Source: an archaeon (GTDB lineage: Archaea > Nanobdellota > Nanobdellia > Woesearchaeales > GW2011-AR9). Taken from it: a stretch of DNA of 47,277 nt. Position numbers and translations under genes: made by a program. This document shows positions 55-43,519 of the stretch, piece after piece. Location: the NCBI GenBank assembly GCA_023259115.1, contig JAHFQW010000013.1, positions 1-47,277 on the forward strand, written 5' to 3'. The first letter of the stretch is position 1; the number at the start of each line of letters is the position of its first letter. The notes under the pieces were generated by a model that did not search any database, was not told the DNA's origin, and saw only the letters and a program-made list of their open reading frames with translations.

Positions 55-64
55 TATATAAATC
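55..64 (-). promoter_or_regulatory. TATA box for an off-window minus-strand gene
   Basis: On the minus strand this reads gatttatata, the core-promoter form used repeatedly in this window. The gene it serves would begin left of position 1. The structured repeat at 79-199 starts 16 bp upstream of the TATAAA-equivalent. Confidence 0.5.
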
Positions 65-78
65 TTTTGTTTTTGAAG

Positions 79-199: not shown

Positions 200-319
200 A
201 GTTTTTGAAATAAACTCTTTTCTAAATAAACGAGTTGCATTTGTATAATCATAAATTATAAACATAAACTTGTCAAGAAATTCATCTATTCTTGTTCCAT
301 TTCCAACCATTTGATAGAA

Positions 320-29622: not shown

Positions 29623-29693
29623 TGGGATGACTGAGAATTGAACTCAGGACTGCTGGTCTGGAGCCGGCTATTTTGCCACTAAACTATCATCCC
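29623..29693 (-). tRNA. tRNA-Trp (CCA), intronless
   Basis: On the minus strand a full cloverleaf can be drawn. Acceptor GGGATGA/TCATCCC is 7 bp. D-stem GTTT/AAAT has loop AGTGGCA. The anticodon loop is CTCCAGA with anticodon CCA (29659-29661). The variable loop is 4 nt, the T-arm is CTGAG-TTCAATT-CTCAG, and the discriminator is A (29623). No CCA tail is encoded. The anticodon stem GCCGG/CCAGC has one C-A mismatch. The D-arm resembles that of glycine tRNAs. A second tRNA-Trp(CCA) lies 400 bp away on the other strand. Functionality is uncertain because of the mismatch. Confidence 0.8.
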
Positions 29694-29900
29694 GAAAAGT
29701 GATGAGAGAGAATTAGCGCCAATACCATGTAGAGAATGAAGAACTAGCTTGAGGAACTATTTTTGTCACATCAAGTATTATATTAAAATAGATAGTAATA
29801 TCTAGAAGAAGAGAATTAACTCCACCGATAATCAACTCGTGTGTAGGCATTCATAACAATAGGAAAGTGCGCCAAGTATAAAAATGTTTCTTTGTTTAAT

Positions 29901-30042
29901 GCTAATATGAAACCCTCTCGTTCGCACCCTCCCTCAAAGTGAAACCGTATCAAGATGAAATATTGTTTCGAGAAGGAGTGTATGGTTTGTCTTACGAATG
30001 ACCCTTGTTCTCACTTGCCCTGTGGTAGAGTTTCATGTTAGC
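29901..30042 (+). mobile_element. Structured MITE-like element, family 1, copy B
   Basis: The 142-bp unit closely resembles the copy at 43321, with the same left arm, gctaatatgaaaccctc. Its right arm (gagtttcatgttagc) has drifted. It is flanked by an 11-bp imperfect direct repeat, 29890-29900 and 30043-30053, with 8 of 11 identical (core ttgtttaa). An internal hairpin gaaac/gtttc replaces gaaat/atttc of the 43321 copy, a compensatory change. It sits between the two tRNA-Trp genes, just upstream of the intron-containing one. A TATA-like tataaa lies 18 bp to its left. Confidence 0.75.
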
Positions 30043-30094
30043 TCTTGTTTAAACAAAAACCTTAATAAAACAACTTCATTTTTAGCATATTTGT

Positions 30095-42536: not shown

Positions 42537-43274
42537 CTATTTGTTGGAGCTAATTAAGAGATACCAAGAGCCAGCGATGATACCTGTGGCAAATGAGATG
42601 ATGAGGCCGATGAGTGTTTGAGTGAGTAATAAGACGGAGATGATTGAGGTTAGGAGTATGGCGGCAAAATATAATGGACGGGAACCCCAGAAAATGGCAA
42701 GGCCATCTAATTGAGGGAGTGGAATGAGAGAGCAGAACGCCATGATGATATTGAGGGCAAGACCTTTTGAGAATAGATAGGTGTGAGGGGAGAGATATAA
42801 TCCGAGGGCAAAGAGACCAGCCATGATAAGATTGCCAATGATACCCCAAAAGGCAATCATGGCATTTTCTATGAAAGAAAAGCCGTACCTGAATTCTCCC
42901 AAACGTTGTTTGACCATAAATGAGACGGCCATTGTGCCGAGTAGAATTAAAGGAAGTCTGCCATTTGAGATTATAGCGAGGAGCAGAGCAACGATAATGC
43001 CTGGCCACCACACTTTAAATTCGGCTTTGAGACCTTGGCTGAGGCCGTAGACTTTTTGGCAGGAGAGACGGAAGAGAATGGAGATGGTTGCAATAATGAG
43101 AACCAGAAAAAGGTTAAGTAGGCCTGTTGTTATATCTAATTGCTGTTCGCCCCAATCACGAAAAGAGAAAATGAATGCAGTTATGAGAATGCCTATGAGC
43201 AGGCTGGAACGTTCTTGGGAACTAAATTCATAAAATTGCTTGAGACGAGCACGGAATTCTTGGGAGGAAACCAT
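42537..43274 (-). CDS. M50-like membrane protein lacking the HExxH zinc motif
   Basis: Six or so membrane segments are visible. The second conserved element of site-2 proteases is present as CSLIPLPQLDGLAIF (usual NLLPxPxLDG). The expected HExxH helix, which precedes a GL.AEF..WWPG segment in archaeal homologues, reads LFRLSCQKVYGL, so the His/Glu zinc ligands are absent. It is most likely a catalytically inactive paralogue. The start at 43274 is set by the TATA box (43297-43304, 27 bp); the longer frame would run into the mobile element at 43321. The length is 245 aa. Confidence 0.75.
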   Translation of the reverse strand: MVSSQEFRARLKQFYEFSSQERSSLLIGILITAFIFSFRDWGEQQLDITTGLLNLFLVLIIATISILFRLSCQKVYGLSQGLKAEFKVWWPGIIVALLLAIISNGRLPLILLGTMAVSFMVKQRLGEFRYGFSFIENAMIAFWGIIGNLIMAGLFALGLYLSPHTYLFSKGLALNIIMAFCSLIPLPQLDGLAIFWGSRPLYFAAILLTSIISVLLLTQTLIGLIISFATGIIAGSWYLLISSNK

Positions 43275-43296: not shown

Positions 43297-43304
43297 TATA
43301 TAAA
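43297..43304 (-). promoter_or_regulatory. TATA box of the M50-like gene
   Basis: On the minus strand this reads TTTATATA, centred about 27 bp from ATG 43274. The family 1 element copy C starts 16 bp upstream of it. Confidence 0.6.
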
Positions 43305-43320
43305 TGATACGGGAGAAATG

Positions 43321-43463
43321 GCTAATATGAAACCCTCTCGTTCGCACCCTCCCCCAACGTGAAATAGTATCAAGATGAAATCTTATTTCGAGGGGGAGGG
43401 CACGGTTTGTCTTACGAATACTCCCTGTGCTCACTTGCCCTGTGGCGAGGGTTTCCTATTAGC
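43321..43463 (+). mobile_element. Structured MITE-like element, family 1, copy C (most intact)
   Basis: The 143-bp unit has terminal inverted repeats of 17 bp (43321-43337 with 43447-43463, 16 of 17 matched). It is flanked by a perfect 11-bp direct repeat, cgggagaaatg, at 43310-43320 and 43464-43474. Inside, ccctccccc pairs with gggggaggg, then gaaata with tatttc, forming one arm; gcacgg/cc-gtgc and gcc-ctgt-ggc form further hairpins. It lies between the M50-like promoter and the THUMP-methyltransferase gene. The perfect flanking repeat points to a recent insertion. Confidence 0.85.
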
Positions 43464-43519
43464 CGGGAGAAATGGTTTAAAATGATTTGAATAATTAATT
43501 TGAATGGCTCTGTAGAATT

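Follow-up and report, generated by a model that had tools for sequence, protein, structure and literature searches.

IS903, a member of the IS5 family of insertion sequences (ISs), has an 18-bp terminal inverted repeat (TIR) starting with GGCTT and a 9-bp target-site duplication (TSD). To our knowledge, insertion precisely 15 bp upstream of an archaeal TATA box has not been described for this family, and the searchable literature yielded no account of TATA-phased insertion, either in archaea or by IS5-family elements. Brf1 is a TFIIB-family factor, homologous to archaeal TFB. The near-base-pair targeting of Ty3 needs TBP together with Brf1 (TFIIIB) (PMC5911963). In bacteria, TnGBS/ISLre2 elements (p-MULT 3) and ISKra4-group elements (p-MULT 4) are located 15–17 bp upstream of sigma-A promoter elements, targeting via sigma-A promoters has been proposed for TnGBS, and a preference of the archaeal ISH6 for AT-rich promoter regions is a matter of speculation only (PMC3942029). 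Prokaryotic and archaeal MITEs (PMC10969869) are short, non-coding and intergenic, carry TIRs and TSDs, form stable hairpins and are mobilised in trans. The elements reported here are likewise of this kind, whereas a precise promoter register did not feature in the passages of that review consulted. We describe three such units in the window, by which we mean the whole analysed stretch of 47,277 nucleotides (contig C25, part of a 1.57-Mb draft genome), and their relatives.

All three repeat units of the original prediction were present in the window, where the 17-bp end motif occurred six times, two per copy, compared with 0.18 expected. Their inverted ends proved to be real, but the predicted length of about 17 bp had to be revised to 18 bp, with the boundary lying one base further out, and the flanks, which were read for all copies, gave an element of the form GGCTAATATGAAACCCTC...GAGGGTTTCATATTAGCC with a 9-bp target duplication (Table 1). 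Once the ends were set at GGC...GCC, the target duplication was thus 9 bp and not 11 bp as had been proposed, the perfect 11-bp repeat around copy C being the result of the 9-bp TSD and one chance-matching base on each side. Because of the corrected boundary, the graded decay that had been read from the duplications also vanished for copies A and C, both of which match at 9/9. The constant element length assumed at the same time did not hold in the own genome, in which copies span 123–605 bp. That the window lacks a transposase had been correctly noted, and there was no transposase ORF within the 123–145-bp window copies.

Table 1. Coordinates in the window of the MITE copies, their target duplications, the adjoining promoters and the neighbouring genes.
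Feature	Position	Strand	Details
Copy A promoter	55-68	-	BRE 63-68 AAAAGA; TATA 55-62 TTTATATA, 15 bp from element end
Copy A TSD	69-77 + 201-209		GTTTTTGAA, 9/9
MITE copy A	78-200, 123 bp	+	18-bp TIRs GGCTAATATGAAACCCTC
tRNA-Trp	29623-29693	-	further downstream of copy B promoter
Copy B promoter	29877-29890	-	BRE 29885-29890 GAAACA; TATA 29877-29884 TTTTTATA, 15 bp from element end
Copy B TSD	29891-29899 + 30044-30052		8/9
MITE copy B	29900-30043, 144 bp	+	18-bp TIR GGCTAATATGAAACCCTC
Gene of copy C promoter	42537-43274	-	245 aa, leaderless ATG 45 bp from element
Copy C promoter	43297-43310	-	BRE 43305-43310 GTATCA; TATA 43297-43304 TTTATATA, 15 bp from element end
Copy C TSD	43311-43319 + 43465-43473		GGGAGAAAT, 9/9
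MITE copy C	43320-43464, 145 bp	+	18-bp TIR GGCTAATATGAAACCCTC

The search by end sequence for further genomic copies identified 14 paired copies of 123–605 bp in the own genome, flanked by 9-bp duplications, together with two lone ends. These copies and the parent ISs sharing their ends, which are described below, bear out the proposed transposition of a non-autonomous element. The larger copies hold other inserts yet retain their own 9-bp duplication. Such composite copies of 278–605 bp (G000 C15:51991-52543, C52:22236-22839, C11:48947-49224 and C24:10286-10623) have inserts that resemble repeats, one of them with ATAC(T/C)AAAAG-type ends and another around AGTAATGGTGAATAATTTTCGAATGGGAGTTCACCATTACT, and, because each keeps its own TSD and obeys the promoter rule given below, they may move as units.

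All genomes used were draft MAGs, and the end search in 78 related genomes gave matches in 19, whereas the reversed control pattern gave 0 matches. The relatives with the 18-bp end were members of the window's own family and order, and the exact 18-base end was, among named genomes, almost confined to Candidatus Woesearchaeota MAGs. The 67 paired elements available from about 24 genomes had TSDs matching at 9/9 in 45 cases and at least 7/9 in 60, a pattern that indicates mobility. In the sister species (G001), many contigs (L143-L155) start about 140 bp from an element end, and such assembly breaks at near-identical copies suggest a recent amplification of the element. Some candidates were rejected: the 49-bp mini-elements in G014 (L073 and L074) contain NN and represent an assembly gap inside a longer copy, virus-borne spread was discarded because none of 2.9 million viral contigs contained the exact end, and the bacterial 18-mer matches L236 and L257, which were unpaired and had no TATA box at the site, were judged to be chance.

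A transposase gene with the same ends was sought and found, as two full-length relatives carry a DDE transposase; the family is thus no orphan and has an IS5-family IS as its parent. One complete IS (L069:1704-2722, G054) is 1019 bp long, with ends identical at 18/18 and a TSD at 9/9, and encodes a 305-aa transposase, and the second (L200:6048-7065, RIFCSPHIGHO2_02_FULL_36_9) is 1018 bp long, with a transposase 63% identical to that of the first. In both, the 18-bp ends are identical or nearly so, the TSDs are 9 bp long and the transposases have 304–305 aa. The transposase matched NCBIfam NF033579 (transpos_IS5_2) with 145 bits against a cut-off of 140, and its Pfam matches above the cut-off were DDE_Tnp_1 and DUF772; no match to Mutator models was found. 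Nine aligned transposases all had invariant D, D and E residues and the motif YxxRxxxExxxxxxK, and the C-terminal signature of the IS5 family is of the Y(2)R(3)E(6)K type. By these features, the parent elements belong to the IS5 family, which they resemble in the DDE_Tnp_1 domain with all three acidic residues, the single ORF, the size of about 0.9–1.0 kb, the TIRs starting with GGC and the 9-bp duplication, and their TIR start and TSD length agree with those of the IS903 group, to which they may belong. The haloarchaeal ISHla2 is a distant plasmid match with about 31% identity.

No intact transposase homologue was found in the window's own genome. An apparent remnant at C14:3353 (L100:1853-1910, G000 C14) looks like the right end of the parent IS, with the 3' end of its transposase, and it adjoins an apparent remnant of another transposase. 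The interior of the MITEs had no evident similarity to the ISs outside the TIR. Judged by their ends, which recur in complete ISs encoding an IS5-family transposase, the three window units are MITEs of an IS5-family element, and from the shared ends and the TSD length we infer that they are mobilised in trans by an IS5-family transposase.

On one side, the layout at the insertion sites was found to be the element, the 9-bp duplication, a 6-bp BRE and a TATA box. Scored by a simple consensus match to TTTWWAWA, the TATA box lies at a distance of exactly 15 bp from one element end, with at least 6 of 8 bases matching in 66 of the 67 paired elements and at least 7 of 8 in 59, compared with a mean of 2.3 at other offsets and 3.1 expected with random intergenic insertion. 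Perfect 8/8 matches occurred 43 times at offset 15, compared with 0 to 3 times at each neighbouring offset. Of 147 distinct flanks, 27 had TTTATA starting at offset 15, and no other offset was used by more than 4. This rule, which was examined within the window's own class, was framed on the own-genome copies and the first relatives and was afterwards tested on the remaining elements; all 14 own-genome copies fit it with at least 7 of 8. Between the duplication and the TATA box there is an R-A-A-A-n-n signal, with RAAA at offsets 9–12, which we take to be the archaeal BRE. ATG shows a peak at offsets 44–46 from the element, and an ORF start was observed on the TATA side at 57 of 66 sites, mostly at 44–47 bp, with no recognisable ORF within about 150 bp at the other nine, partly owing to contig ends. 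At the copy B promoter, the ATG at offset 45, which is the leaderless position, opens only a very short frame, and tRNA-Trp follows further downstream (both within window 29623-29854). The near-symmetric element had no bias in its orientation (34:32). As judged from the BRE signal, the ATG peak and the ORF starts, the insertion sites are real, often leaderless promoters with the element on the upstream side, and the arrangement as a whole shows precise insertion at promoters.

Base composition over the TSD, BRE and TATA box was close between the 43 insertion sites with a perfect TATA box and 97 uninserted leaderless promoters, with differences among 23 positions that were only nominal, with no multiple-test correction, at -1 (p = 0.007) and -7 (p = 0.025). 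Apart from the promoter itself, the sites thus share no clear target consensus.

The gene behind the copy C promoter encodes a 245-aa product with no Pfam match and has an orthologue in 46 of the family's 49 genomes, its own included. In many of the orthologous promoters, a TATA box is located some 30 bp ahead of the ATG. The empty copy C allele would be expected to have one ATTTCTCCC ahead of GTATCATTTATATA. Among relatives, 28 of the 29 orthologous promoters examined were without the element. The remaining one, in G027 (L409:1300-1460), bears an element of the same type, old and decayed, whose place at the promoter is identical and which is probably an independent insertion there.

A second family, with the unrelated ends GGCTCTGTAGAAA, was present in 59 of the 242 genomes searched within the order, and 24 of its 30 bounded copies had a TATA box at offset 15. 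Its parents, L103 and L104, which are 35–38% identical to the first-family transposases, also obey the rule. G123, G390 and G122 have 31–57 exact second-family ends per genome and offer a rich supply of insertion sites in addition to those counted here. Where the two families are stacked at one promoter, the second insertion had reused the identical 9 bp in both orders, with the second family first in L070 and L155 and the first family first in L067; the L070 stack reads CATCTTTTC, second family, CATCTTTTC, first family, CATCTTTTC, CTAAAC and TTTAAATAT. This reuse is as predicted if the promoter, and not the surrounding sequence, sets the position. In the window, 33 bp past the right duplication of copy C, there is also a second-family end with one mismatch (GGCTCTGTAGAAT, 43506-43518), for which no partner end was found and which may be a chance match.

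A TATA box at offset 15 was also seen in IS5-like elements that are more distant but belong to the same class (L273, L277, L281, L351 and L357; 25–50% identity), whereas other G081 IS copies fit less well, with 5–6 of 8 bases matching there. The number of autonomous copies with definable boundaries was small. When 70 further IS5-like loci were screened automatically for TIRs and TSDs, few bounded elements were obtained, a frequent reason being a different TSD length or a position at a contig end. For the archaeal plasmid relatives (Halorubrum ISHla2, Methanomethylovorans and Halorussus), the ends could not be placed confidently, and the rule is accordingly stated for the window's own class.

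From these patterns, we consider it probable that the IS5-type MITEs were inserted by docking of the transposase on promoter-bound TBP/TFB. An IS5-family DDE transposase, acting in trans on the MITEs, would pair the two TIRs, and the complex would be recruited to the upstream side of TFB on the BRE, in TBP/TFB or an initiation complex, with staggered 9-bp strand transfer just outside the TFB footprint. Repair would then result in a 9-bp duplication abutting the upstream edge of the BRE, leaving the core promoter intact and the element end 15 bp upstream of the TATA box, some 45 bp ahead of the transcription start. The fixed promoter position is read from the alignments of sites, and the tethering step, in which the transposase contacts TBP/TFB, is what we infer from it. 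Such promoter-upstream targeting would provide the element with a safe site in a gene-dense genome. That a broad and deeply diverged set of archaeal IS5-family transposases (to 25–30% identity, in Woesearchaeota and related same-class genomes) docks on promoter-bound TBP/TFB has, in our estimation, a slightly better than even chance.

It is also possible, and in our view less probable, that the transposase itself reads the BRE/TATA sequence, or the flexible, bendable TATA DNA, with no host factors involved. Such direct reading would leave the same pattern, since the sites carry the BRE/TATA sequence and the motif is present at every insertion site. Motif matches reaching at least the median insertion-site score numbered 71 in coding sequence, 118 in other intergenic sequence and 125 in promoters, and direct reading combined with purging of genic insertions could yield the pattern. 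Docking on TBP/TFB is nevertheless favoured because the signal is polar, lying 15 bp from one end only where a symmetric complex would be expected to select symmetric targets; because weak TATA sites (for example L138, L159 and L160) are used at the exact register; and because there is no clear additional consensus, insertion-site positions matching uninserted promoters apart from the two nominal differences. Leaderless genes were commoner at insertion sites than at motif matches of equal score in three of four score bins, a comparison that selection against genic insertions confounds, and the insertion sites with the strongest motif had a leaderless ORF in only 4 of 15 cases, compared with 40% of background motif matches. 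Because of this confounding, motif-abundance tests cannot separate direct reading from tethering.

Random insertion, in which only the elements just upstream of promoters have survived, is very improbable. The genomes are compact, with about 79% coding in the scanned loci, and selection would remove insertions that hit genes or core promoters, but sites 13–14 and 16–17 bp from the TATA box should be equally harmless, and yet the perfect matches pile up at 15. Furthermore, random insertion 25–100 bp upstream of starts would be expected to give 3.8 of the elements with at least 7 of 8 matching bases at offset 15, against the 59 observed, and the identical 9 bp were used by two families. As selection cannot set a single-base register, we regard survivorship as excluded.

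It is hardly credible that the units are a conserved RNA, structured or regulatory, or a promoter module and not mobile elements, a reading refuted by the TSDs and the empty sites, since their stable predicted fold (z -2.2 to -6.1) and constant place upstream of promoters are set against the lack of any Rfam match for the units (in the window, only the tRNA gave a match), perfect TSDs with unrelated sequences, empty orthologous sites, both orientations, complete ISs with the same ends, and stacking and nesting. The significance of the fold is due mainly to the inverted ends, as expected for a MITE, and no evidence for an RNA function of the units was found.

The present elements are similar to TnGBS, ISLre2 and ISKra4 in having DDE transposases, a fixed distance upstream of core promoter elements and near-symmetric ends that allow both orientations. 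The TnGBS-type elements differ in that they involve bacterial sigma-A (-35 box) and Mutator-superfamily transposases, whereas archaeal BRE/TATA and an IS5-family transposase are involved here; on sequence grounds, the present elements fall outside the Mutator-type p-MULT families. Ty3 shares near-base-pair targeting and the safe-site strategy with them and differs in its retrotransposon integrase, its Pol III target genes and its eukaryotic host, and tethering, which is proven for Ty3, is presumed here.

Targeting via the basal machinery has been proven for a eukaryotic element (Ty3, by TBP and Brf1) and deduced for a bacterial one (TnGBS, by sigma-A), and the archaeal BRE/TATA case, if true, would fill the third domain. 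Because Brf1 and TFB are homologous, it would then be directly testable whether the mechanism is common or convergent, and, if docking holds for the diverged IS5 transposases, they would be a prokaryotic counterpart to Ty3/TFIIIB targeting. The MITEs would then also record promoter occupancy across the genomes of uncultured archaea. In practical terms, each insertion marks a core promoter at base resolution where transcriptome data are scarce. Such targeting would show how small DPANN genomes tolerate mobile DNA, and, as archaeal activators usually bind just upstream of the BRE, insertions there may rewire regulation.
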